A stretch of 64,000 nucleotides of DNA. Source: a virus. The notes below the pieces were generated by a model. That model had not been told where the DNA came from. It did not search any database and was given only the letters and a program-made list of their open reading frames with translations. A program made the translations under genes and the position numbers. Below, piece after piece: positions 3,027 to 52,387 of this stretch; the stretch's first letter is position 1, and every line of letters begins with the position of its first letter. The stretch is taken from IMG/VR virus record IMGVR_UViG_3300036853_000417, positions 18,151-82,150 of that record, one strand, 5' to 3'.

Positions 3027-4620
3027 TTGCTAGTCTCCTCTGCATAGCCATAAAGAAAGTGTTATCCTTCTCAATACCAATGAACCTTCTTCGCAATTCT
3101 TTGGCTGCTGCGCCACTAGATCCCACACCAGCAAAACCATCAAAGACCGTATCACCTCGATTGCTGCTTACTTGTATCAGATGCTTTAGAACTGATACAG
3201 GCTTTTGTGTGGGATGAAGAGTATCTCCTTTAGCATCAACTATTCTTTCTTTTCCAGAACAGATTGGTGCATCAATATAATCATGCATTTCATTCTCACC
3301 CTGCCAGTTAAGTGTATGTCTTCCCTTACCTTTAGTGAAAAAGAGGATGTACTCACAGCTACTGCGATAAGTTGCTTTTACAATTTGTGGGCCTGGATTG
3401 GTCTTGTGCCATGTGATCATGACATGTACGTGTAAGTTTGCTTTTTGCAAGACTTCTCGCAAGTAAGAAACATACCAATAGGAACAAAAGACATAACCCG
3501 ATCCATGTGGACGAAGAATTCGCATCCACTCTTGTGCCCATAAATCAAAGAGTGCAATGAACTCTTTAGGGATGTATTTATCCCACGCCCCAAAGTCTTG
3601 TGAGCGGTTATTTCTACCATCAAGATCAAATTCCCGCTCATTAGCTATATTGTATGGAGGATCGGTTACAATAAGGTCAATGCTTTCATTAGCGATCTTC
3701 TTGACTTCTTCATAGAAATCACCATGAATCAGAGAAATGCTATTCTTCTGTTCATACTCATCGCGTATCGAAGCAATCAGCTTTTGCAACTTGGGGTGTG
3801 TCTCTTGCTTCCAATCAGCATCATATGCCCCACTATATACCTCATCGATAAGTTGCGTTGTGTATGTATCTCCTAGTGATTCGATCTGTTCTAGTGCATA
3901 TTTCTTCATCTGGTTACGTGCTTTGTAGTTTCCAGCTAGAACTTTGAATTTTCCTTTAGAAAAGTTAGAATTAGTAATCAGTTCTTGAACCAGCTCCAAT
4001 TGTTGTGAGGGCGTGAGGTCAAGAATTGAGCGGAGTAAGTTTTCTGTAAAGGGGGCGGTCGCCCCCTCAAGGGGGGCGACACCATTTTCCTCACCAGGGG
4101 CGGCACTCTCAAAAGTCGCCCCTATCATACTCCAAGCCTCTTTCTCTATTTTTCTGAGAGCAGCGTAGTCCTTCACACTCTCCTTATTCCATCCAAGCAT
4201 CTGTCCAACATCAGCTTGTGTATATTTCTTCTTCCCCTGTTCATCCTCTTCTTCCAACCTTGCCCAAATAAACTCAGCATAGGTAACTAGTGTTGATGGG
4301 ACAACCGTCTCAGCAGCATTGTTGCACTGCATTGCCATCTGATAGAATTCAGCTTCTGTGAATCCAGATTTAACTACGCAAGGGACAGAGATTATATCTA
4401 GTCCTTTAGCCGCCTCATGGCGATGATTGCCATCTATGAGAAGATAACCATCTTCATAAGGAGTCACTGTTAAGGGGTAATTCTCTAAAAAACCTGCCCA
4501 ACGCATACTTTCCTGTAAACGGGCAATACCAGATGCGCTGAGTCTACGCACTGATAATTTAGATATAATTTTATTTAGAGGAAGTATTACAAAATGAGGA
4601 GTTTCAACTTCAGTTGTCAT
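3016..4620 (-). CDS. ParB-like domain fused to beta-class DNA N-methyltransferase
   Basis: 534 residues. The N-terminal 110 residues form a ParB/sulfiredoxin-like domain with the IDGNHRHEAA motif. A helical linker follows. The methyltransferase has catalytic TDPPYN near residue 322 and the AdoMet-binding loop FAGVGSSG near residue 495, preceded by HPTQKPVSVL. DPPY ahead of the FxGxG motif is the beta-class order of amino-methyltransferases (N6-adenine or N4-cytosine). The fusion is common in phages and mobile DNA. The linker near residues 165-195 is coded by a GC-rich stretch of repeated GGGGCGAC motifs unlike the rest of the gene. RBS and overlap link it to the genes on its left. Confidence 0.92.
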   Translation of the reverse strand: MTTEVETPHFVILPLNKIISKLSVRRLSASGIARLQESMRWAGFLENYPLTVTPYEDGYLLIDGNHRHEAAKGLDIISVPCVVKSGFTEAEFYQMAMQCNNAAETVVPSTLVTYAEFIWARLEEEDEQGKKKYTQADVGQMLGWNKESVKDYAALRKIEKEAWSMIGATFESAAPGEENGVAPLEGATAPFTENLLRSILDLTPSQQLELVQELITNSNFSKGKFKVLAGNYKARNQMKKYALEQIESLGDTYTTQLIDEVYSGAYDADWKQETHPKLQKLIASIRDEYEQKNSISLIHGDFYEEVKKIANESIDLIVTDPPYNIANEREFDLDGRNNRSQDFGAWDKYIPKEFIALFDLWAQEWMRILRPHGSGYVFCSYWYVSYLREVLQKANLHVHVMITWHKTNPGPQIVKATYRSSCEYILFFTKGKGRHTLNWQGENEMHDYIDAPICSGKERIVDAKGDTLHPTQKPVSVLKHLIQVSSNRGDTVFDGFAGVGSSGAAAKELRRRFIGIEKDNTFFMAMQRRLANVE

Positions 4621-5521: not shown

Positions 5522-6184
5522 ATGATTAACCTTGTTGCTAAGTCGATAGATATCCTACAGGCTCATCCACGCAATTACCGTATCCATCCTGAGGATGAAA
5601 TTGAGCATCTCATGGAGAGTATTCGTCTACATGGCATCTATCGCAATATTGTCATTGCACAGGATGGAAAGACGATTCTGGCTGGACACGGAGTTGTAGA
5701 AGCTGCTCGTAGACTTGGGATGACACAGGTCCCTGTGTTTCAGACAAACTATCAACCTGATGATCCACATGCTTTAAAACTGCTGGTTGGTGATAATGAG
5801 ATCCAGCACCTTGTTGAGGCTGATGATAGGGCACTCACGGAACTCTTACGTGAACTGAAAGAGATTGATGACCTACTTAGCACTGGTTATGATGAGATGA
5901 TGCTTGCTAATCTCGTCATGGTCAGTCGGCCTGCATCTGAGATTACCGATCTGGATGCAGCCTCACAATGGGTAGGACTACCTGAGCATGATAGAGAAGG
6001 AGAGCGCCGACTTCAAATTATCGTGAACTTTGCCAATGAGGAAGACCGCAAAGCATTCTGTCATCTGCTCGGCCTTGAGTCCAGCAAGATTGCAAATGAA
6101 GGAACAGGAAAGTCTATCTGGTGGCCGAAGCAAGATCGAGATGATGTGAAATCCCTTCGCTTTACTGATGGGAGACAAGGATGA
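5522..6184 (+). CDS. ParB-like nuclease-domain protein
   Basis: 220 residues. Residues 1-105 are a ParB N-terminal-like domain: the start VAKSIDILQAHPRNYR, then a helix and ILAGHGVVEAARRLG. This domain binds nucleotides or DNA. Unlike chromosome-partitioning ParB there is no obvious central HTH; the C-terminal half is helical and unassigned. The gene overlaps the following glycosyltransferase gene by 4 bp (ATGA), suggesting a shared role. A related protein is encoded at 7882-8688. Confidence 0.85.
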   Translation: MINLVAKSIDILQAHPRNYRIHPEDEIEHLMESIRLHGIYRNIVIAQDGKTILAGHGVVEAARRLGMTQVPVFQTNYQPDDPHALKLLVGDNEIQHLVEADDRALTELLRELKEIDDLLSTGYDEMMLANLVMVSRPASEITDLDAASQWVGLPEHDREGERRLQIIVNFANEEDRKAFCHLLGLESSKIANEGTGKSIWWPKQDRDDVKSLRFTDGRQG

Positions 6185-7140
6185 CTCACCGAATACTCCC
6201 AAACTATCCTATCTATATTCCCAGCAAAGGTCGTGCTGATTGCTGCTATACTGCCAAATGTCTTGATGCTGGTGAAGTTCCATTTCATCTCGTTATTGAA
6301 CCACAAGAAGAAGCTCTCTATCGGGTGCAGTTCCCCAGTGCTCATTTTCTAATTCTCCCCTGGAATGGTGATGATCAGGTACGACGTGATTTCTGCCAGC
6401 AACGTCGTATTGAGAATGGGGGCCTCATTGCTGCACGCAACTGGATTAAAGAGCATGCCACAGCAACAGGCAGTGAAAGACATTGGCAGTTAGATGACAA
6501 TATCACAGAGTTCTATCGGCGCTACAAGGGTAAGCGTATCCGATGTGAGTCGGGTCTTGCACTACGTGCCTGTGAAGACTTTACTGACCGTTATGAGAAT
6601 GTTGCGATCTCAGGTCTCAATTATTATATGTTTGTTATGGATGATAAGCAGACATCTCCACTTGTTATTAATTGTCATGTGTATTCTTGCTCCCTGATCC
6701 TGAATGCACTTCCCTTCTGCTGGCGTTTGGCCTACAATGATGATACGGATATATGCCTGCAAGTCCTCTCAACAGGGATATGGTGTACGGTACTCATCAA
6801 TGTCTTCATGTGTAGGAAGTTGCGCACAATGACTGTACAGGGTGGCAATACTGCTGATCTCTATCAAGGTGATGGACGATTGCATATGGCGCGTTCACTT
6901 GAACGGGTATGGCCAGGCATCGTTGAAACAAAGCGTCGTTTTCATCGACCACAACATGTCATAAAAGAGAACTGGAAATGCTTTGATACTCCGCTTCGAT
7001 TGAAACCGGACATTGATCTAACACAACTTCCTCCAACCAATGAATATGGGATGGATCTTTGTCAGATCAAAGATGTAATCAAAAGTCCCCGAATCCAAAG
7101 ATTACATGATGCATGGCAACAGACACATAGATCTGAGTAA
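6181..7140 (+). CDS. TET-associated-type glycosyltransferase (TAGT-like), DNA-base glycosylation
   Basis: 319 residues. The protein begins with YIPSKGRA (residues 12-19), followed by a Rossmann-like strand order, WQLDDN at residues 103-107 and YNDDTDICLQVL near 185-196. These fit the GT-A-like TAGT family found beside TET/JBP dioxygenases in phages, where it is thought to add sugar to 5-hydroxymethylcytosine. The acidic pairs D105/D106 and D187/D188 are candidates for metal and sugar-nucleotide binding. The TET-like gene is 1.5 kb downstream. The family call is from remembered motifs, and sugar donor and acceptor are not shown by the sequence. Confidence 0.72.
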   Translation: MTHRILPNYPIYIPSKGRADCCYTAKCLDAGEVPFHLVIEPQEEALYRVQFPSAHFLILPWNGDDQVRRDFCQQRRIENGGLIAARNWIKEHATATGSERHWQLDDNITEFYRRYKGKRIRCESGLALRACEDFTDRYENVAISGLNYYMFVMDDKQTSPLVINCHVYSCSLILNALPFCWRLAYNDDTDICLQVLSTGIWCTVLINVFMCRKLRTMTVQGGNTADLYQGDGRLHMARSLERVWPGIVETKRRFHRPQHVIKENWKCFDTPLRLKPDIDLTQLPPTNEYGMDLCQIKDVIKSPRIQRLHDAWQQTHRSE

Positions 7141-7300: not shown

Positions 7301-7885
7301 GTGGACAGGGGAAATTCATCACTTTTCGTTCTTGGCGCTCCTGGGACTGGAAAATCAATCCTGTTACGTTCTTTTCTTCAATCCCTCGGATCTTTTGGAG
7401 AGTCTTATCAGTACAACCTGATTACCGGACAATGGTTTTCTGACTATTCATTGTTGGTTTTGGGAGAATATGTATCTGAGGAATCCTTTCCCGGCACTGA
7501 TCGCTGGTCAATGGAGGTACAACGGTGTGCAGCAGGATTTTGGCAGGACATTGCTCAACAATCTTGTACAGTTCTTGGTGAGGGAAGTCGCATTGCAACA
7601 CGTCCCTTTATTGATGCGGCACGTATCTCTACGCTGGTCTCTCTTGTTTTCTTACAGGTACACACTGATATTCTACAGGCACGCAGGGAATGGAGAGGAA
7701 AGCAAAATGCATCCTGGGTGAAAGGGATAGAGACACGCATAGAGAATCTTCAGCACTATTATCAAAATCAATTGCCCTGTTTTACCTGGAAGAATGAAAC
7801 AGACCAGGACCTCACACGCAATCTGAATGCATTGCATACAATGTTATTTAGCTCGATGTCTGTACATATGGAGGACCTATCATGA
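7301..7885 (+). CDS. small P-loop kinase, candidate hydroxymethylpyrimidine-DNA kinase
   Basis: 194 residues from a GTG start with GAGG 7 bp upstream. The Walker A motif GAPGTGKS is at residues 12-19. Further on, VLGEYVSEESFPGTDRWS and VLGEGSRIA resemble the substrate and lid regions of small nucleoside/DNA-base kinases. In thymine-hypermodifying phages a P-loop kinase phosphorylates 5-hydroxymethyluracil in DNA. Here the gene is followed by a ParB-like protein, a TET-like dioxygenase and a glycosylase-fold protein, so a role on 5-hydroxymethylcytosine is an inference from context. It overlaps the next gene by 4 bp. Confidence 0.65.
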   Translation: MDRGNSSLFVLGAPGTGKSILLRSFLQSLGSFGESYQYNLITGQWFSDYSLLVLGEYVSEESFPGTDRWSMEVQRCAAGFWQDIAQQSCTVLGEGSRIATRPFIDAARISTLVSLVFLQVHTDILQARREWRGKQNASWVKGIETRIENLQHYYQNQLPCFTWKNETDQDLTRNLNALHTMLFSSMSVHMEDLS

Positions 7886-8688
7886 GTACTACAGTTGTTA
7901 CCCATAAAACGATTCCGCTTTCACTCATTGATACGCACGCTCGTAATTATCGCAAGCATCCTCCTGCACAATTAGAGAGGCTGCGTGCCTCGCTTATCCG
8001 ATTCTCGCAGGTGCGTTCTATCGTCGTGCAGGCAAAAGAAGGTGGTCGCTACAGGATACTGGCAGGGCATGGAGTTGCATCGGCTGCACTTGAATGTGGA
8101 ATTCTCAAGCTGCATTGTAACGTTGTTCCTGACAACTGGGATGAGGGGACCTGTAATGCATATCTTGTTGCTGATAATGAGGTTGAACGAGGGGTGGATC
8201 TTGATAATCAACTTTTAGCTGAATTGCTGAAAGAGCAGGTGGATGCTGGATACTCGCTAGATGCATTAGGTATTCAAGAGAAAGAATTTACTGATCTTTT
8301 GCAAATACTCCAGGAATCTGATCGTGCTGTCCCGTCTTTTGCTGAACTTGAAGAAGAGGAGGAGGATGTACGACAGTCGATGACCCTTCCTCAAGGGAGA
8401 ACTGCCGATATTGTGAACTCTAAGAATATCAATCAAAAAGGAGATGGTGTTGCATTCGGGAGAGATCCAAAGCAATGGTTGCAGCAGTATGAAACAACTA
8501 TGCTACGACAGATAGTTCTCATCTATAAAAGCGATGAATATACACGTGTTTTAACCCAATTTATGGCTATTCGTCGCCAAAATAATCTGGAAACAAATGC
8601 CGATGTTGTAGGAGAACTTCTTTCATTTTATTTAAAGAGTCATCCAGAACTTGAAGAGGAGGCAAAGCAATATGCCTCTTCAGTCTGA
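7882..8688 (+). CDS. ParB-like domain protein, paralogous to the one at 5522
   Basis: 268 residues. The N-terminal 110 residues match the pattern of the 5522-6184 product: SLIDTHARNYRKHP, then ILAGHGVASAALECG and a VADNEVERG segment comparable to VGDNEIQHL. The C-terminal 150 residues are helical and differ. It lies between the kinase and the TET-like gene, overlapping both, which suggests it recruits or positions the modification enzymes on DNA. No nuclease residues are identified. Confidence 0.82.
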   Translation: MSTTVVTHKTIPLSLIDTHARNYRKHPPAQLERLRASLIRFSQVRSIVVQAKEGGRYRILAGHGVASAALECGILKLHCNVVPDNWDEGTCNAYLVADNEVERGVDLDNQLLAELLKEQVDAGYSLDALGIQEKEFTDLLQILQESDRAVPSFAELEEEEEDVRQSMTLPQGRTADIVNSKNINQKGDGVAFGRDPKQWLQQYETTMLRQIVLIYKSDEYTRVLTQFMAIRRQNNLETNADVVGELLSFYLKSHPELEEEAKQYASSV

Positions 8689-9526
8689 GCCAAGAGTCAT
8701 CACTCGACCAAGACGTGAGCTTGATCTCAAGTCATATCGTTTTCGGAGAGCAGAGATACGTGACTATACAGAATTGTTGACCTCTTCCACTATTTTGCGA
8801 GATGAAGCTAGTGGAAGAGTGCGTGTTGTTTATCTCGTATTATCTGATGATTGTAATGAGATTGTCCAGTCACTGCGCTCTATTCAATTTGAAATAGATG
8901 AGCGTGCATCAGGAATGCTTTCTCAATCTCGGATATTTGGATATCGTCCAAGAATTACCATTCGAGATGATTTTTGTACGACTGCTGCTCTTGCTCGCGA
9001 GCATCCTTTTGCCTACAAACTTATTTCTTCCTATGCAGCAAAGGTTTCAGATTACTACCATCAGTTCAATCCTGAGTTGTTTATAGAACATCAACGGATA
9101 GTAGGTCGTGTGCTTCCTGAATGGAGGCTGGAGGGATCGGTTTTTACCTCTGGAATTATTAATAAGAATAATCCTTTGCCTTATCACTTTGATCAAGGAA
9201 ATTTTCAGGATGTTTGGAGTAATATGCTTGTTTTCAAGCACCAAATAGGAGAGGGGTATCTTTCTGTTCCTGAATATGACATTGGTTTTGAGGTAGCACA
9301 TAATTCTCTTCTGATGTTTGATGGGCAAAACATTCTACACGGAGTAACACCTATTTATTTAGAAGGACCTGAAGCTTTTCGTTATTCCATCGTTTACTAT
9401 AGCTTAAAATCAATGTGGAATTGTCTGTCTCCCGATGAAGAGGTGAGGCGTATTCAACGTTTGCGTACCTCTCGTGAAGAAAAAAGATTTTTCAAATATC
9501 TTCCACCAAAGGAGATGCCAGAATGA
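8672..9526 (+). CDS. TET/JBP-like 2-oxoglutarate/Fe(II) dioxygenase
   Basis: 284 residues starting MPLQSEPRVI; AGGAGG lies 9 bp upstream, so I use this start. The double-stranded beta-helix signature is clear: HFD with iron ligands H172 and D174, distal ligand H223 in HGVTP, and R237 in RYSIVYY placed to bind 2-oxoglutarate. The segment between includes MLMF-type strands (NSLLMFDGQNILHG) typical of TET/JBP enzymes. The family oxidises 5-methylpyrimidines in DNA to 5-hydroxymethyl forms. Neighbouring glycosyltransferase and kinase genes and a C5-methyltransferase at 46.9 kb support action on 5-methylcytosine. It overlaps the flanking genes at both ends. Confidence 0.78.
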   Translation: MPLQSEPRVITRPRRELDLKSYRFRRAEIRDYTELLTSSTILRDEASGRVRVVYLVLSDDCNEIVQSLRSIQFEIDERASGMLSQSRIFGYRPRITIRDDFCTTAALAREHPFAYKLISSYAAKVSDYYHQFNPELFIEHQRIVGRVLPEWRLEGSVFTSGIINKNNPLPYHFDQGNFQDVWSNMLVFKHQIGEGYLSVPEYDIGFEVAHNSLLMFDGQNILHGVTPIYLEGPEAFRYSIVYYSLKSMWNCLSPDEEVRRIQRLRTSREEKRFFKYLPPKEMPE

Positions 9527-10419
9527 TCATGTCTGCAAAGGTATTTGAGGATTTTGCATTCTTCTGTCAGCATCAACTTGTGAGTAAAGATGTTGATCCC
9601 GTCTATCCATTGTTGCGGTTGCTGGTATCTCCTCTCTTGGAGGAGCAGGCACTCTGGCACACACTCCTCTATGTTGGATATTACTCTCTCCCTTCATCTC
9701 GTGCCGCTTTTGATCGTGTTCCCAGTGTTGATGCACTTCCCTTGTCCCTGTCACGTTTACCAACTGGGGTAGAGCGAAGAGGATTTCGTGGAGGAACCAT
9801 TACCAGGCATGTTGATAGCTTGCTTTATTTGCACGAGACATTTGGAAGTTTGAAAGCATGGCTCTGTCAGGAATTTGGGAGAGACATACGACAGAACTGG
9901 ATTCATTTACAAAATACCCTGCAGCAGGCATGGGGGAATGGACGGTGGGCTGCTTATAAGACCGGAGAAATTTTACAGAAAGTCCATGATTTTCCAGTGC
10001 AGCCAACAGATATGGGACATGAGTTTTCAACGGGTCCTCGTCATGGTCTTGCCCTTTTCTATGGGAATGCTTGGGGGAATGCTCCTGATGCTATTCAAAC
10101 ACTGAATGCTCAGGGAGAAAATCTCCTACAGTGTCTTGCAGAACAAGGGATACACATGGGCATAGAGCAGTTAGAGACAATGCTCTGTGATTTTTATTCC
10201 CTGGTAGGGGGACGCTATTATGTTGGTCATGATATTGATATGCTACAGACACAATTACTTGCCTCCTCTCTTTCATCAGATATCCTTGAACCTATCTGGC
10301 AAGCAAGAAAAAGAGCATTACCACACGCATATCTGGGAGAAATACAAGGCTGGACAGGAATTGATAGGGAGCGGAAAAAAGTGTATCAAAGAACAGGAAG
10401 GGTGATTATTCGTGGCTAA
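9523..10419 (+). CDS. DNA-glycosylase-fold base-modification enzyme, aGPT-Pplase/AADT-like
   Basis: 298 residues, almost entirely helical. Visible blocks are EEQALWHTLLYVGYYSLPSS near residue 38, GNGRWAAYKTGEILQKV near 138 and STGPRHGLALFYG near 171. Helical proteins with GRW...K...E and GPR.GL motifs belong to the group first called alpha-glutamyl/putrescinyl-thymine pyrophosphorylases. Some members were later shown to transfer amino acids to activated hydroxymethyl-pyrimidines in phage DNA. The assignment rests on remembered motifs and on position, between a TET-like enzyme (4-bp overlap) and an FAD enzyme (8-bp overlap). Confidence 0.55.
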   Translation: MIMSAKVFEDFAFFCQHQLVSKDVDPVYPLLRLLVSPLLEEQALWHTLLYVGYYSLPSSRAAFDRVPSVDALPLSLSRLPTGVERRGFRGGTITRHVDSLLYLHETFGSLKAWLCQEFGRDIRQNWIHLQNTLQQAWGNGRWAAYKTGEILQKVHDFPVQPTDMGHEFSTGPRHGLALFYGNAWGNAPDAIQTLNAQGENLLQCLAEQGIHMGIEQLETMLCDFYSLVGGRYYVGHDIDMLQTQLLASSLSSDILEPIWQARKRALPHAYLGEIQGWTGIDRERKKVYQRTGRVIIRG

Positions 10420-11302
10420 ACAGTGTCACCTTGTGGGTATGGGGCTGACTGGAGCGATGGTTGCATGGATACTCTATCAACATGGCTATACATTCACATG
10501 GGAGGATAATGACCAATCTGTTTGTGCCTGGAAAGCTTCAACAGGACTGATTTACCCTTGTGGGGATGACGGAGAAATGAAAGCATACTCTATCTGGAAA
10601 CAATGGCATGGAGGAAGAGCATCCTGGTCTGGTTGCCAGGTAATTGAAAAATGTGTAGAAGCTGGATCATTCTGGTTTGTGACGAAGAATCCTCCCCACG
10701 GGGGAACCTATTCAATTGAGCGCTCAATTGGATTGCTGCATCTTGCCTCTCTTTCATCATATCACTTGAATGTTCAGCATTTTGTGCGGCAAACCAGGCA
10801 GATATTTTCTGCTTGCCGCAAAGATAGATCTCATGGTCAGATCATTATTGCGAATGGATATGGATCACGCCTCCACCATTATCTTTGGGGCTGGTCTGCT
10901 CGCGTTCACCTCTCTTTTTCACAGGATTTGCTCAATGCTTCCCCATTGCGTCCAACATTCTATTTACGTCGCTCACGTTATCAATTTGGATATGCCAATA
11001 TCATTCCTGGGGAATCTGTCTATTATGCAGGTTCATCCCTCATTCATCAGGCTGAACCAAAATCCTTGAATATTGATTCTAAATATGAACGATGGAAACA
11101 ACATGTATTTGATACAACTGGAGGCAAGATATGTGTAACAGGTGTTTTGGACAGGCAAGAAGGATGGAGACCTGTATCAGACAAGCAAGATCTCGCATGG
11201 ATTACACAAGAGAATGGGATGCTGATCGTGCGCCCAATGGGTAGCTCCGGGGTCCGTCTTGCCCCATTGCTATGTGAAGCATTGCTTAAAATACTGGGAT
11301 AG
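10412..11302 (+). CDS. FAD-dependent oxidoreductase-like protein
   Basis: 296 residues. The N-terminus is a dinucleotide-binding beta-alpha-beta fold, HLVGMGLTGAMVA (GxGxxG at residues 9-14), followed by an acidic residue in FTWEDND. The C-terminus has MGSSGVRLAPLL, like the second FAD contact in glycine/D-amino-acid oxidase-type enzymes. In thymine-hypermodifying phages FAD enzymes act on the amino acid attached to the base, so a similar late tailoring step is plausible. It overlaps the preceding gene and ends 9 bp before terminase small subunit. Confidence 0.68.
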   Translation: MAKQCHLVGMGLTGAMVAWILYQHGYTFTWEDNDQSVCAWKASTGLIYPCGDDGEMKAYSIWKQWHGGRASWSGCQVIEKCVEAGSFWFVTKNPPHGGTYSIERSIGLLHLASLSSYHLNVQHFVRQTRQIFSACRKDRSHGQIIIANGYGSRLHHYLWGWSARVHLSFSQDLLNASPLRPTFYLRRSRYQFGYANIIPGESVYYAGSSLIHQAEPKSLNIDSKYERWKQHVFDTTGGKICVTGVLDRQEGWRPVSDKQDLAWITQENGMLIVRPMGSSGVRLAPLLCEALLKILG

Positions 11303-11311
11303 GGGAAAGAT

Positions 11312-11845
11312 ATGCGCGAAACACCTGATTCAGCTTTGGCATTTGAGCGATATTATGACCTGGGAGAGGATCGTACCTTAGCCCTTCTTGCCCAAAAAAT
11401 GCGTCAGGAAATGATCAGACAACAACAGATCCTGAGGGATACCAAACCCATACCAACAGAAGCAACACTGCTCTCTCGTTATAAGAAATGGTCAAAGGCA
11501 CACAAATGGCAGGAGCATGTCATTCAGCGTGACCGCGCACAGGCAGAAAAGGACCGTAAGAAGAGGCTAAAAGCCATAGAGCAGATGAATGATGAACATT
11601 CACTGTTTGGACGAACACAGGCAATGCAGGCAGTAAGACAAATCAAAGAATTGATTGATGCAAAGAAACTTGGGGCGCCTGCAGCAGTGCAGCTCTTTAA
11701 ATATGCAACCGATCTGGAACGGGTAGCGCGGGGGGCTGCTACCGAAGTGGCACATCTTCAGCATACAGGTGAAGAAGGTGGACCAATTGTCATTAAGACC
11801 GAATGGGGGACGGTAAAACTTGATCGCAATGAAGAGGAGATATAA
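11312..11845 (+). CDS. terS: terminase small subunit-like protein
   Basis: 177 residues, helical and highly charged, with a central coiled segment (residues 65-110). Position directly before and overlapping the large terminase gene, size and helical content support a small-subunit role in packaging-site recognition. No HTH is clear by eye. GGGGAAAG lies before the ATG. Confidence 0.65.
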   Translation: MRETPDSALAFERYYDLGEDRTLALLAQKMRQEMIRQQQILRDTKPIPTEATLLSRYKKWSKAHKWQEHVIQRDRAQAEKDRKKRLKAIEQMNDEHSLFGRTQAMQAVRQIKELIDAKKLGAPAAVQLFKYATDLERVARGAATEVAHLQHTGEEGGPIVIKTEWGTVKLDRNEEEI

Positions 11846-13182
11846 TGCCTACTGCTACTCGCGAGTATCGCGTTCGGCTCTACACTCCTCATCCAGGTCA
11901 AGTCCCTCTCCATGAAAGTCGGGCGCGTTTTCGTGTGATAAATTGCGGCAGAAGATTCGGGAAAACGTATTTCGCCGCGAATGAAGAATGTAAGTTTGCC
12001 CTTGACCACAATGATGTTCTCTGCTGGTGGGTAGCTCCAACATATAGACAATGTAAGATTGCCTATCGTTTGATGAAGAGAGCCTTAAAAGAGGTGCTGG
12101 TCAAGCATAGTGATACGGATCTTCGCTTAGAAATCATCAATGGTTCTGTTATCGAGTGTCGGTCATGCGATAAACCAGACAACCTGCTTGGAGAAGGTAT
12201 ACACCTGCTCGTCGTTGATGAGGCCGCCATGCTTCCAGATAGCACGTGGTTCAATGTGCTGCGTCCCATGCTTTCAGACACAAATGGGAAAGCTATCTTT
12301 ATCTCAACACCCAAGGGTCGCAACTGGTTTTACACGATGTACTTGCGGGGGTTGGACCCACTTCAGAAAGATTATGAGTCCTTTACCAGGCCCACATCCG
12401 CCAACCCCTACATTGATCCAGAAGAAATTGCGCATGCAAAAGAAGATTTGCCAGAGGATGTCTATGAGCAAGAATACCTGGCAGAATTTAAGGAGAATGC
12501 AGCGGGCGCGTTTCGGGGGATTGATGCCTGTATTGAAGGAGAGCTACAGGAGCCTCGCCCTGGAGTCATTTATGAAATTGGGTATGATGTAGCCAAGCAT
12601 CGGGATTTTTCAGTGATCACGGTGCTCAATACTTCAACACAGCATGTAGACTGGTGGTACAGGGTCAATCACGTGGATTACGTTGTTCAAGTCCAAGATT
12701 TAAAAGATATTGCAATGCGCTATAATAATGCGCACGTACTGATGGATGCTACCGGCGTTGGGGACGCGGTGATGGAGATGGCACGCCTGGTTGGGGTCAC
12801 TGTTGATGGATTTCTCTACACCAATACCTCTAAAACCAATCTTATTGGTGATCTGATTGTGGGTATCCAGCACCGGGCCATTACATTTCCTGATATTCCG
12901 GTACTGGTCGGGGAGCTACGTGCAATGCAGGTCAAATATTTACCAAGTCGTCTGGTTCAATATGAAGCCCCTCCCGGCTATACGGATGATGGAGTGCATT
13001 CACTGGGTCTCTGCTACAAAGCAGGTGCAACAGGTGGTACAATAGCCTTATCATCTTCTCATCAGGACAAGGGTGATGAACTTCCTGTACAACATCAATC
13101 TGATGATGATCTGATTATGGAGCGCCAGGCGCAGATGGCAAGATTGCTTGGACGTGTTCGTATTACATCAACATTTGGATAG
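11845..13182 (+). CDS. terL: terminase large subunit
   Basis: 445 residues. The ATPase has Walker A GRRFGKT at residues 35-41 and Walker B LLVVDEAAML near residue 122, with a following motif III-like ISTPKG. The C-terminal nuclease domain shows IGYDVAKHRDFSVI near 247 and DATGVGD near 300, acidic residues of the RNase H-like fold. The enzyme powers DNA translocation into the prohead and cuts the concatemer. It overlaps terS by one base and is followed at once by the portal gene. Confidence 0.95.
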   Translation: MPTATREYRVRLYTPHPGQVPLHESRARFRVINCGRRFGKTYFAANEECKFALDHNDVLCWWVAPTYRQCKIAYRLMKRALKEVLVKHSDTDLRLEIINGSVIECRSCDKPDNLLGEGIHLLVVDEAAMLPDSTWFNVLRPMLSDTNGKAIFISTPKGRNWFYTMYLRGLDPLQKDYESFTRPTSANPYIDPEEIAHAKEDLPEDVYEQEYLAEFKENAAGAFRGIDACIEGELQEPRPGVIYEIGYDVAKHRDFSVITVLNTSTQHVDWWYRVNHVDYVVQVQDLKDIAMRYNNAHVLMDATGVGDAVMEMARLVGVTVDGFLYTNTSKTNLIGDLIVGIQHRAITFPDIPVLVGELRAMQVKYLPSRLVQYEAPPGYTDDGVHSLGLCYKAGATGGTIALSSSHQDKGDELPVQHQSDDDLIMERQAQMARLLGRVRITSTFG

Positions 13183-27546: not shown

Positions 27547-27693
27547 TTTCCACCTGCATTCTCCTGGGAAATGTTACTCAAAATTGATTATCACCTTCAT
27601 TATACCTCTTAAAGACTTTCCTTGGAGGGTATTCTAAAGATAGAACATATTCTCATATTATCGGGGGAGCAGCGATGAAAAATATCTGCTTTT

Positions 27694-27767
27694 GGATCTT
27701 TAGCTCAGAAGGTGAGAGCGTAGTCCTGATAAGGCTGAGGTCCCTGGTTCGAGTCCAGGAAGATCCA
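27694..27767 (+). tRNA. tRNA-Ile(GAU)
   Basis: 74 nt with all arms: acceptor GGATCTT/AAGATCC, D stem GCTC/GAGC, anticodon loop CTGATAA giving GAU, variable AGGTC, T arm CCTGG TTCGAGT CCAGG, discriminator A. CCA is not encoded. It lies between a leftward hydrolase gene and a structured RNA locus and is followed by a strong terminator. Confidence 0.95.
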
Positions 27768-27780
27768 TTATTCATACAAA

Positions 27781-35242: not shown

Positions 35243-35314
35243 CAAAAAATCCACCCTCATTATACCACAAAACCGCTCCACAAGCCAGTTTATGTCTTTT
35301 TTGCGTATCAAAAA

Positions 35315-35388
35315 TAGCCCCAATTGGAGTTGAACCAATGCCTCCCATTTATAAGATAGGTGCACTTAACCACATGTGCTTTGGGGCT
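35315..35388 (-). tRNA. tRNA-Ile(UAU)
   Basis: 74 nt on the minus strand: acceptor AGCCCCA/TGGGGCT, D stem GCAC/GTGC, anticodon arm CCTAT CTTATAA ATGGG giving UAU, variable AGGC, T arm ATTGG TTCAACT CCAAT, discriminator A. Position 8 is A rather than U. UAU would read AUA directly; bacteria usually do this with a modified CAU anticodon. It sits just outside the HNH/intron insertion. Confidence 0.85.
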
Positions 35389-35522
35389 ATGCGTTCACTA
35401 TTGCTTCCTGCCAAAAAAACCGTGTCGTCGGTAGTAAGAAATCGCCAATCGAACACGTGTCACAAAATCAGCAAAAAATGTTCTCATGCATTCAATCTCC
35501 TTTCAGAAAGGAGTATAGCACA

Positions 35523-45534: not shown

Positions 45535-46803
45535 ATGGCGTTAATTGTACCAGTTCGTGAAAATAATGGATACCTTGGTTTTAGCAAACAGACGGTATCA
45601 GATGTAGCGGTTGCGCCATCGGTATTTCCCAGGTGGATGGACGGATCTGGAATTGAGATAATAGCAGACTCCGAAACCATTGAGGAAGGAGAAGGATCAC
45701 GCCGCACATCCATTATTATTAAAAATGGGCAAAGGGCAAAAATAAAGCTGAAAGCCGCTTTTCGTGCCAATGAGTTAGGGTTTTTTGAGGCGGCTTCAAT
45801 GGGGAGTGGAAGTGATGTGTATACTGCCCCAACTGTCAGCACAACCCTTTCGGCAAATACAGTAGTGGGAGCAACAACCATTTCCGTTGCTGCTAACACA
45901 GGACTGACAGGAAGTGGCACACTTGCCCTGGTCATCGAGCCTGGAACCGTAACAGAGGAGATTGCAATTTTCACCATTCCACCAACCGGTGTGGGACCCT
46001 ACATTCTTACTGTTGCTAATGGAGGAACACTCAAACTTGCTCACACCTCAGCGGGCGCAGTAAAGGGTAGTGCATCACATGTGCTCACTGATCAGACAGA
46101 TGGCGATTATTATACCAGTGAGGTCGGTCTTGGCAATCTCTCCGGGGGTCCTGGAACGGCCATTCGTGTGCGTTCCTGTAAAGTTTCATCTTTCGAGAGA
46201 AGTGGGGAACACGGCAAAATCTTAATCCATGAAGTTGAGCTGACTGGCATTGTTTCAGTTGTACAGGTAACTCCTGCGACCATTACCCTGGAACAACATT
46301 TACCCTTCCTTTTCACTCACATGAATGGGGGAGTAACACTTGATGGCTCAACTTCTGGTGATGCTGCAAATCTGACCAAATTTAAGATTGCTCAGGACAA
46401 CAAGCTTGATGAAGATACACAGGCTGAAGCATTTACGCTTGCTGCACTGCTCTTCGGCAATCTTGAGATTAAAGTAAGCTACAGCGCGATCTTTACCTCG
46501 TTTAGTAAACTTGCCCTGATTTACTTCGGCAGTACTACTGGCACCACTGATTCTTCAGTCGTTGGACTGGGATCACTCATCATGACATTCACACAACCAG
46601 ACACCTTCCAAACGGTGCAATACAAGATTTTAACGCTTGCGTATTCAAAAGGAAAGTTTCCTGAATTAAAGAAGGGTGGAAAGCATTTTACGGTTGATAT
46701 CGATGATGCGATGAGTATTGCAGCTCCATTATCAGGAGCTGGGCTAAACAATGCGTACCTGCTACAAACAACCATTACCAATACACAGTACAGTCAATAT
46801 TAG
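45535..46803 (+). CDS. major tail tube protein
   Basis: 422 residues. The N-terminal part (GYLGFSKQTVSDVAVAPSVF, IEEGEGSRRTS) and the C-terminal strand order match phage tail-tube proteins. A Thr/Ser/Val-rich insertion at about residues 90-185 resembles an extra surface domain. GAGGAAAAG precedes the ATG. It would polymerise to the tail tube on the tape measure. Confidence 0.75.
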   Translation: MALIVPVRENNGYLGFSKQTVSDVAVAPSVFPRWMDGSGIEIIADSETIEEGEGSRRTSIIIKNGQRAKIKLKAAFRANELGFFEAASMGSGSDVYTAPTVSTTLSANTVVGATTISVAANTGLTGSGTLALVIEPGTVTEEIAIFTIPPTGVGPYILTVANGGTLKLAHTSAGAVKGSASHVLTDQTDGDYYTSEVGLGNLSGGPGTAIRVRSCKVSSFERSGEHGKILIHEVELTGIVSVVQVTPATITLEQHLPFLFTHMNGGVTLDGSTSGDAANLTKFKIAQDNKLDEDTQAEAFTLAALLFGNLEIKVSYSAIFTSFSKLALIYFGSTTGTTDSSVVGLGSLIMTFTQPDTFQTVQYKILTLAYSKGKFPELKKGGKHFTVDIDDAMSIAAPLSGAGLNNAYLLQTTITNTQYSQY

Positions 46804-46852
46804 GGACTATTCGGAATAGTGCATGGAATCCAAAAAGAGAGGGATGTAACCA

Positions 46853-47695
46853 GTGATACAAAAACCTCGTTTGCTTGATCTTTGCTGTAAGGCTGGTGGG
46901 ACGTCGGTTGGGTATGCGCGTGCTGGTTTTGAGGTTGTAGGTGTGGATATCGAATCACAACCGAATTATCCCTATACGTTCTACCAGTCTGATGCATTAA
47001 CTTTTGACCTGATAGGTTTTGACGTTATAGCGGTTAGTCCCCCGTGTCAAGGTTATTCACAGTCCAGTTACTTCCACAAGGGAGCTAGGGCAAAACATCC
47101 TTTGCTTATAGGTGCATTCCGTGAACGTTTACAAGTTTCTGGATTGCCTTACATTATCGAGAATGTAGAGAAAGCTTTACTCGATATGCGCAACCCTATT
47201 CTGCTTTGCGGTGAAATGTTTGGATTGCGAACATATAGACATCGACTTTTTGAGAGTAACATACTGCTTTATGCTCCATATCATCCCCCTCACATTATGC
47301 CAGTAGCAGGACCAGGGGCTATAGCAAGAGCAGGGGAATATTGGAGTGTTGGCGGTCACTTTGGACAGAAAGAGAGAGCACAGAGGGAAGCATTAGGAAT
47401 TGATTGGATGAAGACAACTGAAGAGATAGCAAACGCGATACCTCCAATTTATACGGAATGGATAGGCTTACAAGTTCTTCAGGCATTGAGTAAGCGTCGT
47501 CAAGAGGTGCGAATACAGTTATGTGAGTGTGGATGCAGAAGAATAGCCAAACCAGCTAACAGCAGGGGAAGGCCAGGAAAGTATGCATCAGATGCTTGTA
47601 GAGTACATGTAAATCGGGCAAAAGGGGTGCATGTTACGAAACTCGCAAAGGTCGTTACTGGTCACTCTATGAAAATTTTACACGATTCTGAATAG
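46853..47695 (+). CDS. C5-cytosine DNA methyltransferase
   Basis: 280 residues from GTG with GAGAGGG ahead. Motif I is LLDLCCKAGGTSVGYARAGF, motif IV AVSPPCQGYSQ with catalytic Cys65, motif VI IIENVEKA near 105 and motif VIII RTYRHRLFES. The usual target-recognition domain is short. The last 60 residues are an unusual Cys/Arg-rich tail (CECGCRRIAKPANSRGRPGK). It would make 5-methylcytosine, the substrate a TET-like enzyme needs. Its place between tail tube and tail chaperone genes is unexpected and suggests insertion. Confidence 0.9.
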   Translation: MIQKPRLLDLCCKAGGTSVGYARAGFEVVGVDIESQPNYPYTFYQSDALTFDLIGFDVIAVSPPCQGYSQSSYFHKGARAKHPLLIGAFRERLQVSGLPYIIENVEKALLDMRNPILLCGEMFGLRTYRHRLFESNILLYAPYHPPHIMPVAGPGAIARAGEYWSVGGHFGQKERAQREALGIDWMKTTEEIANAIPPIYTEWIGLQVLQALSKRRQEVRIQLCECGCRRIAKPANSRGRPGKYASDACRVHVNRAKGVHVTKLAKVVTGHSMKILHDSE

Positions 47696-47717: not shown

Positions 47718-48191
47718 ATGAACACAACACAGAATGGAATGATTGGATTTTCAGAGGAACAGTTAGAGACGGTGATGCAATCACTGGAACTGGCAAATCC
47801 AGATGAAGTCACCAATGAAGTCATTGATGTTCGAGTGCGCTTTTATCGTGATGAGCCAGTGCTTGATGATAGTGGTAATCCTTTTTGCGATGAGAAAGGT
47901 CATCCCTTCACCTATCGAAGAGCAGGTATGCGTACCGCGCATATTCAAAACATTGTTCCGGTCAATGTCTATGCTCGCTCCATTGCCATTTCAGAGGGGT
48001 TTGCAGGAGGAACGCCAACGGCTGAACAGGTTGAGGCAATGGGCGATCTGGTCCATCAAGTCTGGAAAATCAGTGAGCCGTTTATGACACGAAAAATGTT
48101 GATTGAAGAAGGTATTGATGGTGATGTTGTTTTTGGACTCTTCATGCGTTTTTTCGCCAAGCTGAACCGCCCGTTGAACAACAAAGCGTAG
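47718..48191 (+). CDS. tail assembly chaperone (G-like), zero-frame product
   Basis: 157 residues with AAGGAGGAG ahead. Acidic, helical, it sits between tail tube and tape measure where tail assembly chaperones lie. The zero frame stops after PLNNKA. Just before, the bases U UUU UUC at 48149-48155 permit a -1 shift into the next frame, giving a longer chaperone. Confidence 0.75.
   Translation: MNTTQNGMIGFSEEQLETVMQSLELANPDEVTNEVIDVRVRFYRDEPVLDDSGNPFCDEKGHPFTYRRAGMRTAHIQNIVPVNVYARSIAISEGFAGGTPTAEQVEAMGDLVHQVWKISEPFMTRKMLIEEGIDGDVVFGLFMRFFAKLNRPLNNKA
48149..48155 (+). promoter_or_regulatory. -1 ribosomal frameshift site (U UUU UUC)
   Basis: Read in the zero frame as CGT TTT TTC, the heptamer fits the X XXY YYZ rule. 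After slipping, codons from 48155 run open through 48191 and join the 125-residue frame at 48257 in phase, giving a 305-residue G-T type fusion. This is the classic tail-chaperone arrangement. Confidence 0.85.
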
Positions 48192-48634
48192 CACGCAGGG
48201 AGTACAACGCCAGGCATAGGCGCGGTTCAGTTATTGATGATGGTGTTATTGATCCTTTGTGTGATTGGGATGAAAAAGCTATCCAGAAAGCCATCTCCGA
48301 AGCTCACAAAATTCAGAAATGGGATGAAGAGGCGTCAAGACAGATGCTGGCACAGGTGCAGGCAGTCAAAATAGGTAGCAGGACAAGCAGAGAACCGTAT
48401 GACCTGATGAAGCTATTTGCCCGCGTGCTCTACCACTACAAGGGAGCGATTGCCGACGCGGATTTTGATCGGATGGATTACCGAAGATTTTTTGGATATG
48501 TACGAGAGTTAGACCTGATTCTAGAGGAGGAGCATGAGGCGACAAAAGAGAATAGTAACGGCAATGTGCAAACAACACTTTCTCAAATTCCACAGGCCAA
48601 TGACTATGACGGAGAAGTGATCAAGTTGGTATGA
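48155..48634 (+). CDS. tail assembly chaperone T-like extension (frameshift product)
   Basis: 159 codons in the -1 frame with no stop between the slippery site and 48634. The first 34 codons have no good independent start, and a TTG at 48257 (reads MCDWDEKAIQKAI) lacks a Shine-Dalgarno site, so expression as a frameshift fusion with the upstream protein is likelier. Mostly helical. It ends 9 bp before the tape measure gene. Confidence 0.75.
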   Translation, partial: RQAEPPVEQQSVARREYNARHRRGSVIDDGVIDPLCDWDEKAIQKAISEAHKIQKWDEEASRQMLAQVQAVKIGSRTSREPYDLMKLFARVLYHYKGAIADADFDRMDYRRFFGYVRELDLILEEEHEATKENSNGNVQTTLSQIPQANDYDGEVIKLV

Positions 48635-48643
48635 GGTAGAACG

Positions 48644-51600
48644 ATGGTAGATGAGACGATATGGAAACTTGGGATTCAACTGGGCAATAGCCAGGCTGTA
48701 CTTGATGGACTCAAGAATGCGCTCTCCTCTGTCAAAGATCGCTTTGCTGAAATCGGCAATCAGGCTACTAAATTTACCTCCAATTTCAAGGCAACAAACA
48801 CCAGTATTGCTGATCTTGGAAGTCGCGCCGCAGCCGCCGGGCTAGACCTCTCTCGATTGACCACCTCTCAAGTCCGGGCATCTGAAGCAGCAAAACGCTT
48901 GGAGCTTGCCCAGGCCCAGGCAACCGCAGCGCTGGCACGTGCCAATGACATGGCAAAAAGTGGTTCTGCTTCTGCCGAAAGGATAGCTGTTGCTTATGCT
49001 CAGGCTACTCTTGCTGCTGCAAGAATAAAGAGTGCAGAGGATGCGGTGAGTGTTGCCATGCAGAAAGTGCAGACAGAAGCAGCACAACTTTCATCTTCTT
49101 TAAACAATAGTACGCACCATACCAATCTCTTTGCCAATGCCATCTCAAGCGCAAAGTCGCATATTGCTAGTTTTCATGCCTCTCTTTCCAGTGCTGCAGA
49201 TAAAGTGGTCGATTTTGGCAGTAAAGCTGGTATGGGTATTTTTGCACTCCAACAAATCGGACAAACAGCCATAAGTGTAGCGCAATCTCTCTTTCAACCA
49301 GCTCTGGCAATCGAGCAGACAAACGTTGCCTTTAAAGGGCTTTTCCAGGGTAATCAACAGGCAGCGGCAGCATTTCTCGACAAACTTCATCAATTCGATG
49401 ATGCCTCTACCTTCTTTGATTGGCCAACACTCACACAATCCTCGCGCTCACTCATTGCGATGAAGGTTGGGGTGGGAGATATCATTCCACTCATGCGTGG
49501 GTTAGGAAACACGATTGCGACGATGGGAGGGGGAACAGATGAAGTAAATAGAGCAGTCCTTGCTATCGGTCAGATGTCAGCCAAGACAAAAATTTCGGCT
49601 GAAGAGATGAATCAGTTAACCGAGGTCGGTATCCCCGGCTGGGACATGCTTTCAGAGTCAATGCATAAGCCAATTCCAGAACTGATGAAAATGTCAGAAC
49701 AAGGGAAATTGCTTTCAGCAGAAGCAATTCCAGCACTGATTCAAGGGATGGAGCGCTTCTCGACTGGTATGGCGGATCAAGCAACGACTGCGGCTGGCAT
49801 GTTTGATCGAATGAAAAACAGCGCAATAAAGGCGCTTATTGCACTCACCTCGCCCATTCTCGAAAGCGCAAAGGGTCAATTTAAAGCAATCGCAGATACC
49901 GTTTCCTCTCCTGCATTCCAGCAATTTGCAACAACGGTCGGGCAAGATATTGCAGGTGCACTGGCAACCGTCAGTGGCTTTCTATCTGGAACCGTTATTC
50001 CAGCAATTCAGACGGCTAACACCTGGATTGGTCAGTTCACCGGAACTGGCAATGCACTCATTCCTGTTTTAGCTGGTATTGGATCTATTGTTGCTGCTGT
50101 TGTTATTCCCGCCCTGGTCAGTCTTGTTGCATCTGTTGGCCCATTTCTACTACTTGGCGCAGCGATAGCTGGACTCACTGCTATCTTTTTACATTTTTAT
50201 AATTCTAATGCAGGTTTTAGAGAATTTATCAACAGTATAGGACAATCTATACAAAACGTATGGAAAATCATATCATCTAATTTCATGCCTGCTCTACAAA
50301 TAGTTGGATCATTTCTTCAGACCACCTTCCAACCCGTGTGGCAACAACTGGTTGATACCTGGCAAACACAACTCCTACCTTCCTGGAATCAACTGATGGT
50401 GGCACTGCAACGAGCAACCCCTCTCTTCCAGCTTATCGGTGTAGCCATCCTCATCATACTTGTTAGTTCCATACGGGCACTGGCAGGGCTGCTTCCCGGC
50501 GTTATTCAGGTTTTCGGAGGAATTGTACAGTTTATTTCAGGCGCAATACAAATAATTACCAATATTATCATGTTTTTTGTTCATTTGTGTACAGGACAGT
50601 TTGATCAGCTAGGAGGTGATCTGGGCGGTATATGGCAGGGTATCGTTACTATGTTTTCAGGTGTTTGGAATATTATCATTGGGATATTCAGGGCAGCAAT
50701 AGGATACATTACTGGATATTTTAGTCCAGTTAGTCAGTTTTTTATCGATAAATTTAATGATGCTAAAAATGGAATAGTAAATGTATTTGGTAATATCGGT
50801 GCATGGTTCGGAGATAGATACAGAGACATACAAAACGTATTTATCGGGATAGGTGCCTGGTTCGGTGATCGATTCCGTGAGATTTCCGCCCCGCTAATGC
50901 CTGTCATCTCATATATTGGCTCAATATTCCAAACACTCTGGAATATTATCATTGCCATTTTTGGCATATTCGGCAAGTGGTTCCGTGACCGGTGGCAGGA
51001 GGTTGTGGTTATTTTCTCTCCTGCTGCTGCTGTATTCCGTTATATATTTACTACCGCGTGGAATGCTGTTACTGGCGTTTTTGCATTTCTTGGAGGGTGG
51101 TTCCGTGATCGGTTGAATGAAGTGATTTCACATGTCATTTCATTCAAAGATAGTGTTATCGGTAAATTTAACGAAGTAAGTGCGGGTGTCAATAATATAT
51201 TTCACAATATGATAAATAGTATAATAGACAGATTAAATAACGGAATCACAGCAGTAGAGAATTTTGTCAACTTTTTTGGACAGGGACTCAACTCTATTGC
51301 AGCAGCACTGGGGACAAGGGGAGTTATCGCAGTTGTTCACTTGAACCGTATCCCCCATTACGCAGAAGGGACAGCAGGGCATCCCGGTGGACCGATGGTC
51401 ATTGGTGAAGAGGGACCCGAACTGGTTATTGCCCCTCGTGGAACAGCCGTTCTTTCAGCGCAGGAAACAAGAGCGTTTTTTTCTGGTCGTATCCCTGGCT
51501 ATGCAGGTGGAATAGGAGATATCACAGGAAGCATCATAGGTTGGATTGCAGGTGGAGCAAAATCCATTTTAGATAATGTCATAAGAGCTATGGGTATTTC

Positions 51601-52387
51601 TACTCCTAACATGGGAGGGTTTGGTGATATCGGGTCTGCTCTCTTTGAGAAAGTCAAATCCTGGGCTGTCGGTTGGATTGATTCGATTCTTCCCAAGTTT
51701 GACTTTGGTGGAGGCACTGCGGCTCCAGGTGATGTGCAAAGTTGGATTGCAGCAGCTATGGCAATTACCAGTGTGCCCGGTAGTTGGGCAGGTGCTCTTG
51801 CAACGATTGCAATGCATGAGTCAGGAGGTAATCCAAGAGCAATCAATCTGAACGACATCAATGCGATAAACGGAGACCCTTCACGTGGACTCTTTCAGAC
51901 CATTGGTGCAACATTTAGAGCGTATGCGCTTGCTGGACATGGAGATATCTACAACCCTGTAGACAATGCTATTGCGGCTATTCGCTATATTTTAGCACGA
52001 TATGGGAGTGTTTTTAATGTTCCTGGTATTGCGTCTATGGCACGTGGAGGTGCTTATGTTGGCTATGCACTTGGTGGAATGATCAACGAGCCTATAGCAG
52101 GACTAGGATTGCGCAGTGGAACAAGCTACATGTTCGGTGAACGCGGGCCAGAACTGGTGACACCTGCCTTTGCTTCTCCTCGTCCTGCCAATGACCAGAC
52201 AACACAATACCTGGCACAAATGGTAGCATTGCTCGCACAAATCGTAACATTGCAAAGACAAAATAGTGGAAATGTCACGACAAATAACAATGTAAATATG
52301 AATCCAGTAGATGTTCAGAGAATGAATCAAATCATGCAGTCGCTCAGCGGATATGGATATGAGGGGGTGTCACGTGGTGCATTTTAA
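48644..52387 (+). CDS. tape measure protein with lytic transglycosylase domain
   Basis: 1247 residues. The N-terminal 180 are coiled-coil. Hydrophobic stretches near residues 465-520 and 600-640 could insert in the host membrane. Repeats of GAWFGDRYRDI/GKWFRDRWQEV occur four times at about 710-830. GEEGPELVIAP and GERGPELVTPA mark two typical tape-measure turns. Residues about 1030-1125 form an SLT-like transglycosylase: AMHESGGNPRAIN with catalytic Glu near 1059, then SRGLFQTI and AAIRYI. The length implies a tail near 185 nm, at about 1.5 angstrom per residue. Domain and size show it opens the cell wall during DNA entry. Confidence 0.93.
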   Translation: MVDETIWKLGIQLGNSQAVLDGLKNALSSVKDRFAEIGNQATKFTSNFKATNTSIADLGSRAAAAGLDLSRLTTSQVRASEAAKRLELAQAQATAALARANDMAKSGSASAERIAVAYAQATLAAARIKSAEDAVSVAMQKVQTEAAQLSSSLNNSTHHTNLFANAISSAKSHIASFHASLSSAADKVVDFGSKAGMGIFALQQIGQTAISVAQSLFQPALAIEQTNVAFKGLFQGNQQAAAAFLDKLHQFDDASTFFDWPTLTQSSRSLIAMKVGVGDIIPLMRGLGNTIATMGGGTDEVNRAVLAIGQMSAKTKISAEEMNQLTEVGIPGWDMLSESMHKPIPELMKMSEQGKLLSAEAIPALIQGMERFSTGMADQATTAAGMFDRMKNSAIKALIALTSPILESAKGQFKAIADTVSSPAFQQFATTVGQDIAGALATVSGFLSGTVIPAIQTANTWIGQFTGTGNALIPVLAGIGSIVAAVVIPALVSLVASVGPFLLLGAAIAGLTAIFLHFYNSNAGFREFINSIGQSIQNVWKIISSNFMPALQIVGSFLQTTFQPVWQQLVDTWQTQLLPSWNQLMVALQRATPLFQLIGVAILIILVSSIRALAGLLPGVIQVFGGIVQFISGAIQIITNIIMFFVHLCTGQFDQLGGDLGGIWQGIVTMFSGVWNIIIGIFRAAIGYITGYFSPVSQFFIDKFNDAKNGIVNVFGNIGAWFGDRYRDIQNVFIGIGAWFGDRFREISAPLMPVISYIGSIFQTLWNIIIAIFGIFGKWFRDRWQEVVVIFSPAAAVFRYIFTTAWNAVTGVFAFLGGWFRDRLNEVISHVISFKDSVIGKFNEVSAGVNNIFHNMINSIIDRLNNGITAVENFVNFFGQGLNSIAAALGTRGVIAVVHLNRIPHYAEGTAGHPGGPMVIGEEGPELVIAPRGTAVLSAQETRAFFSGRIPGYAGGIGDITGSIIGWIAGGAKSILDNVIRAMGISTPNMGGFGDIGSALFEKVKSWAVGWIDSILPKFDFGGGTAAPGDVQSWIAAAMAITSVPGSWAGALATIAMHESGGNPRAINLNDINAINGDPSRGLFQTIGATFRAYALAGHGDIYNPVDNAIAAIRYILARYGSVFNVPGIASMARGGAYVGYALGGMINEPIAGLGLRSGTSYMFGERGPELVTPAFASPRPANDQTTQYLAQMVALLAQIVTLQRQNSGNVTTNNNVNMNPVDVQRMNQIMQSLSGYGYEGVSRGAF

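Follow-up and report, generated by a model that had tools for sequence, protein, structure and literature searches.

A short C5-cytosine methyltransferase gene in the tail module of a phage genome that also carries a distant TET cluster

The 64,000-nucleotide stretch of viral DNA analysed here (the window) carries a TET/JBP dioxygenase gene within a cluster of DNA-modification genes and, far downstream among the tail genes, a gene for a C5-cytosine methyltransferase, which raises the question of whether the methyltransferase supplies 5-methylcytosine (5mC) to the dioxygenase or serves the phage in a separate way. An earlier note on this DNA had argued that the TET pathway, if it operates, would need this gene expressed earlier than its late neighbours. 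Our analysis favours a different answer: the gene probably encodes an orphan, protective methyltransferase of the short phrog_363 type, a stand-alone moron that is not required by the TET cluster.

By its sequence the product is a C5-methyltransferase in which every examined motif is intact, and it is predicted to be active. It matches the Pfam DNA_methylase profile PF00145 (E 3.1e-5, 24 bits against a gathering cut-off of 22), a profile that is weak on short methyltransferases (E 0.0088 for the ToastyFinz enzyme), and its residues 3-218 match the phrog_363 'DNA methyltransferase' profile at E 1.7e-32. Across alignment A5, whose 39 rows comprise the window methyltransferase and 38 relatives from viral contigs, the catalytic PPC (P63 P64 C65) is invariant, as are ENV (E103 N104 V105) and RHR (R129 H130 R131); PPC, ENV and RxR are motifs of C5-methyltransferases. 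The predicted structure contains a block at pLDDT 80-98 spanning residues 1-210, and Foldseek matched the model best to 3g7u (E 5e-9) and M.HaeIII (1dct, E 1e-8) in the PDB, with further matches to M.HhaI (E about 1e-7) and DNMT3A/B; the top match among viral predicted structures was a Pithovirus methylase at 40% identity. The gene has its own GTG start, as the earlier note had it, and its standing as the only enzyme able to make 5mC was borne out by a profile search of the entire 82,150-base record (linear and possibly a fragment, which limits the statement to the record), where PF00145 gave a single match, to this gene; a second C5-methyltransferase outside the window was rejected on the same result. 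The gene does not stand out from the rest of the genome in codon usage (deviation rank 58/89, and 20/38 among genes of similar length), so the gene bears no mark of recent arrival, and recent foreign acquisition as judged by composition was rejected.

The Cys/Arg-rich C-terminal tail that had been described is likewise present: the final 66 residues hold 4 Cys and 15 Arg+Lys. Residues 249-280 fall below pLDDT 50 in the predicted structure, and the extension is predicted from the model to be either disordered or a small zinc-finger-like knuckle. The 4-Cys basic tail was not found in the methyltransferase relatives aligned in A2; tails with at least 3 Cys occur in 3 of 96 relatives, and these look unrelated.

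The gene lies in the tail module, upstream of frameshifted chaperone genes and the tape measure gene (Table 1), and this location is unusual. It had been placed between the tail tube and the tail chaperones, and the downstream half of that description stands. Overlapping frames with a slippery site before the tape measure gene are characteristic of genes for tail assembly chaperones; here the first small ORF follows the methyltransferase stop by 22 bases, and a slippery TTTTTTC at 48149-48155, between that ORF and a -1 frame running to 48634, likely marks a programmed -1 frameshift, to judge from the sequence. The tail tube could not be upheld, as the product of the preceding gene matched no PHROG and no Pfam family and had no relative among phages or viral contigs, and its single-sequence structure model was unusable (pLDDT 31). 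The distance to the TET gene also needs correction: the two are indeed far apart, by 37.3 kb and not 35 kb.

Table 1. Positions in the window of the methyltransferase gene, its tail-module neighbours and the TET cluster
Feature	Position	Strand	Evidence or remark
ParB-like protein, first gene of the TET cluster	5612..6184	+	PF02195 below cut-off (run on ORF 5522-6184)
TET-associated glycosyltransferase (TAGT)	6181..7140	+	PF20691, E 1.5e-38
P-loop nucleotide kinase (Ploopntkinase3), presumed 5-hmU DNA kinase family	7301..7885	+	PF18751, E 1.3e-8
Second ParB-like protein	7882..8688	+	phrog_620
TET/JBP dioxygenase	8672..9526	+	PF12851, E 4.2e-10 (run on ORF 8651-9526); alignments A1, A4
ADDT, amino acid:DNA transferase	9523..10419	+	PF18724, E 9.7e-18
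FAD-dependent-oxidoreductase-like protein	10412..11302	+	weak PF01266, E 0.019; orthologues in CaiB, Tonitrus, LittleMunchkin
Terminase large subunit, directly after the TET cluster	11845..13182	+	Pfam and PHROG match
Upstream gene, 422 aa, no family found	45535..46803	+	position fits a major tail/tube protein (putative)
Gap before the methyltransferase gene	46804..46852	+	49 bases; 6-bp hairpin without T run; GAGGG stretch resembling a ribosome site
Short C5-cytosine DNA methyltransferase	46853..47695	+	GTG start, 280 aa; PF00145, phrog_363, alignment, predicted fold
C-terminal extension of the methyltransferase, residues 215-280	47495..47692	+	4 Cys, basic; sequence and model
Two small ORFs (47718-48191, 48344-48634), likely tail assembly chaperones	47718..48634	+	overlapping frames, slippery site
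Tail tape measure protein	48644..52387	+	phrog_167, E 8.4e-89

Relatives of the methyltransferase gene are found in other surroundings. Among ten named phages that carry one (Beuffert, Ruotula, GIW2016, ToastyFinz, Baka, Phabuloso, Tesla, Nesbitt, Amavida and Success), none has it in a tail module; the neighbours are DNA polymerase, primase, ThyX, RecT, RecB-like, helicase and small unknown genes, and in Tesla the gene is divergent and lies near terminase. With such DNA-metabolism, terminase and small unknown genes beside it in these ten phages, the gene travels alone. IMG/VR loci gave a similar picture among the best 80 of at least 596, of which 52 are flanked by 3 kb or more in each direction: the sole ORF longer than 900 aa within 3.5 kb is SbcC-like, and the ten large neighbours identified comprise eight of DNA metabolism (SbcC-like in four cases, then a helicase, a polymerase, a ribonucleotide reductase and a primase), two terminases and no tail gene. 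A single-sequence search of viral contigs returned no close relatives of the methyltransferase; searches for close relatives of the phage found none, giving four weak matches with the tape measure protein and one weak match with the terminase, and a look at sequence repeats yielded nothing useful.

Transcription signals gave no footing to the early promoter that had been suggested for the gap before the gene. A consensus scan of the + strand found no sigma-70-like site in 46800-46853, and such sites occur in the region at chance frequency (13 against 10.2 expected, sd 3.9); no terminator-like sites were detected on the + strand between 43 and 49.5 kb, and an Rfam scan over 40-52 kb had no match. 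The simplest reading is that the methyltransferase gene is co-transcribed with the tail genes. Early expression finds no support in the gene order either: the terminase genes follow the TET cluster immediately, TET and methyltransferase may both be late, and a post-replicative methyltransferase can act late. Methylation and oxidation both act on polymerised DNA, and both could thus act on replicated DNA before packaging. We infer that the layout does not require early expression even if the methyltransferase feeds TET.

The composition of the TET cluster (5.6-11.3 kb) bears directly on what its dioxygenase modifies. The PF12851, PF18751, PF18724 and FAD-like genes linked in 7.3-11.3 kb correspond to the parts expected of a thymidine hypermodification cluster: a source of the 5-hydroxymethyl group, a kinase, an amino acid:DNA transferase and a tailoring enzyme. 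Gordonia phage CaiB has orthologues of the kinase (30% identity), the ADDT (38%) and the FAD-like protein (33%), and orthologues of the last two also occur in LittleMunchkin and in Rhodococcus phage Tonitrus, whose cluster PMC11955845 labels a thymidine hypermodification system, by annotation and not by chemistry. A mycobacteriophage homologue, Prince gp2, carries the GenBank annotation 'thymidine hydroxylase'. For phages M6, ViI and phi W-14, PMC6449724 sets out a chemistry that proceeds from 5hmdU through a 5hmdU DNA kinase to amine transferases. No match to PF00303, the dUMP/dCMP hydroxymethylase family, was found in the record, and TET is therefore the likely source of the 5-hydroxymethyl base. 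Orthologous clusters occur in phages where no C5-methyltransferase was detected, and by analogy with these the TET cluster most likely acts on thymine. A comparison with the PDB for TET substrate residues found nothing beyond weak, partial similarity to Naegleria TET, CMD1 and TET2, and no bacterial genomes carrying the window's TET clade were found.

Several features of these loci deserve mention in their own right. A ParB-like gene lies near TET in 76 of the 80 loci examined (the best 80 of 341; L004-L007 and L119-L194), and perhaps the ParB-like partner guides the enzymes of the TET locus along DNA; three loci (L004, L005 and L124) hold two TET genes each, with ParB-like genes interleaved. 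A second, different DNA methyltransferase is encoded in the window on the - strand (3016-4620), with an N-terminal ParB-like region joined to a CcrM-like adenine/N4-cytosine methyltransferase domain. Two family names also call for care. The PHROG phrog_800, named 'terminase small subunit', matches both the window's kinase and CaiB gp4 (L009:2512-3057), which Pfam assigns to P-loop nucleotide kinase 3, and the PHROG name looks wrong for both; phrog_6059, named 'queuine tRNA-ribosyltransferase', matches TET/JBP dioxygenases including that of the window, and the same name stands on TET/JBP proteins in many RefSeq records (mycobacteriophage gp2).

The named phages do not support the need of the TET pathway for this gene that had been supposed. 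A C5-methyltransferase was found in none of 12 named TET phages searched (0/3 and 0/9) with PF00145, and in none of the 12 with the short-type profile A3, which recovered three of three controls; the window's TET neighbourhood also matches the Tonitrus cluster, published in PMC11955845 as thymidine hypermodification by annotation. No C5-methyltransferase could be detected in the genomes of CaiB, LittleMunchkin and Tonitrus, all of which carry kinase/ADDT/FAD-like clusters, and TET was absent from all ten named phages with a short methyltransferase (two of two controls found). Two annotated methyltransferases beside TET were rejected as C5 enzymes, Nonlabens P12024L gp28 being an N6/N4 methyltransferase and cyanophage MED4-117 gp24 a ParB-like protein.

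Viral contigs present a more mixed picture. At the best 80 of 341 TET loci, examined for up to 10 kb on each side, seven have a C5-methyltransferase-like gene: full-size in L006 and L161, short and of the window's type in L119 and L127, and weakly matching directly after TET in L154, L155 and L176. The short gene of L127 also directly follows TET, and in L119 a phrog_363-like methyltransferase precedes the TET, ADDT and kinase genes by about 2.3 kb. A search of the whole length of 22 of these TET contigs, drawn mainly from the longer ones, found a clear C5-methyltransferase in three (G005, G010 and G025) and a marginal match in G019 (E 0.002-0.003), which we scored as absent. In the TET tree the window falls in a supported clade of eight rows with L004 (two TETs), L006, L007, L119, L120 and L121, and a C5-methyltransferase is present in four of the five informative genomes of this clade (window, G001, L006 and L119) against 2/32 others. 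This count leaves out L005, L007 and L121, whose contigs measure 7-12 kb (L005 is, besides, near-identical to L004), and it leans towards association because L006, a 13.7 kb fragment, was included for having a methyltransferase. Fisher's test gives p = 0.001 with the window and 0.005 without it; dropping G001 along with the window gives 0.029, and 0.067 results when the named phages are left out as well; among IMG/VR contigs outside the clade the count is 2/20, plus one marginal. The clade enzymes are not orthologous, being short in the window and L119 and full-size in L006 and G001, a difference that would fit repeated recruitment for a function. The G001 gene lies 32-35 kb from its TETs on a 327 kb contig, with no recognisable DNA-modification genes in its neighbourhood, and this co-occurrence may be chance.

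The clade association is one ground for a reading in which a cytosine pathway begins with the unlinked methyltransferase, making 5mC that TET converts to 5hmC for further tailoring by the kinase, ADDT and FAD-like enzymes, by the glycosyltransferase, or by both. Phage TETs that act on 5mC in company with C5-methyltransferases and glycosyltransferases were reportedly described by Burke et al. (2021), according to PMC12730594 and PMC11404850, and the window has the corresponding parts: the sole C5-methyltransferase of a TET-bearing record, and TAGT within the TET cluster. The short methyltransferases near TET in L119 and L127 point the same way, L119 being the best single argument. We nevertheless consider this reading unlikely, given the CaiB, LittleMunchkin and Tonitrus clusters, the small clade numbers with a G001 enzyme that is possibly there by chance, and L120, a 59 kb contig of the same clade without a C5-methyltransferase. 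We know of no kinase or ADDT that acts on 5hmC. One form of it, decidedly unlikely in our estimate, is a split pathway in which a late, unlinked methyltransferase places 5mC at a short motif, TET makes 5hmC, and the kinase, ADDT and FAD-like protein phosphorylate, aminoacylate and trim that base to yield aminomethyl- or aminoacyl-cytosine; the window's TET clade would then be a cytosine-switched branch that recruited unrelated methyltransferases several times. To our knowledge, tailoring of a 5-hydroxymethyl base by kinase, ADDT and FAD-like enzymes has been described for thymidine alone.

Both chemistries might also coexist, with TET making 5hmU for thymidine hypermodification and oxidising 5mC to 5hmC that TAGT glycosylates. 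The presence of TAGT and kinase/ADDT in one cluster, and the joining of a short methyltransferase with kinase and ADDT in L119, would suit such an arrangement, which we still judge very unlikely; TAGT could equally act on 5hmU, the base on which the base J glycosyltransferase acts. It is highly improbable that the protein is catalytically dead or a non-DNA enzyme, whether as a relic or with its Cys-rich basic tail serving DNA binding or regulation: the extra tail and the short target-recognition region, unlike that of classical enzymes, would suit such a protein, but all motif residues are intact, the frame is open, and close relatives are equally short.

In the orphan, protective reading that we prefer, the gene would have entered the genome as a stand-alone moron and settled between structural genes, where it would be transcribed with its late neighbours. 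Once the phage's own DNA has been replicated, the active enzyme would methylate a short motif in it, before or during packaging, and so may shield that DNA from host restriction. The TET cluster, 37 kb away, would hydroxylate thymine in DNA, and the product would then be phosphorylated and aminoacylated by other enzymes of the cluster. So read, the enzyme most likely adds one more to the protective methyltransferases of phages, its place being the main point of interest; and as the TET cluster looks like thymine chemistry, a phage TET gene alone should not be taken as evidence of 5mC oxidation. Should the clade association prove true, the same kinase and ADDT would be acting on cytosine, and that would be a new finding.

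Other features of the record concern the biology of the phage more broadly. Several six-base palindromes are strongly avoided over the whole 82 kb record, GGATCC (13.9 expected), CTCGAG (10.2) and TCCGGA (9.8) being absent and CTGCAG (5 against 24.0) and CCATGG (3 against 18.4) depleted, a pattern that hints at restriction in the phage's past even though it carries modification genes. Two tRNA-Ile genes, with anticodons GAT and TAT, lie at 27693-27768 (+) and 35314-35389 (-). An integrase gene in the same record outside the window (L003 14706-15641, +; phrog_1) indicates that the phage may be temperate.

Comparison with known systems places each half of this arrangement. The phrog_363 enzymes of Mycobacterium phage Ruotula (gp92), Streptomyces phage Beuffert (gp6) and Paenibacillus phage GIW2016 (gp50), at 47-50% identity in alignment A3, have the same motifs on a core of about 210-230 aa and are likewise encoded by stand-alone genes; the window gene differs in its tail-module location and its extra 4-Cys basic C-terminal tail. 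With M.HaeIII, M.HhaI and the E. coli prophage CP-933R enzyme (3g7u) it has the Rossmann core and catalytic motifs in common but is much shorter between motif VIII and the C-terminal motif, and we therefore draw no inference on its specificity. The TET cluster resembles those of CaiB and Tonitrus (the latter as given in PMC11955845), in which ParB, TET, ADDT, P-loop kinase and FAD-like genes lie upstream of terminase, and the window adds TAGT, a second ParB-like gene and the unlinked C5-methyltransferase. The phage TET cytosine hypermodification reportedly described by Burke et al. in PNAS in 2021 likewise unites TET, a C5-methyltransferase and a glycosyltransferase in one genome, whereas in the window the methyltransferase lies 37 kb off and kinase, ADDT and FAD-like genes are present.
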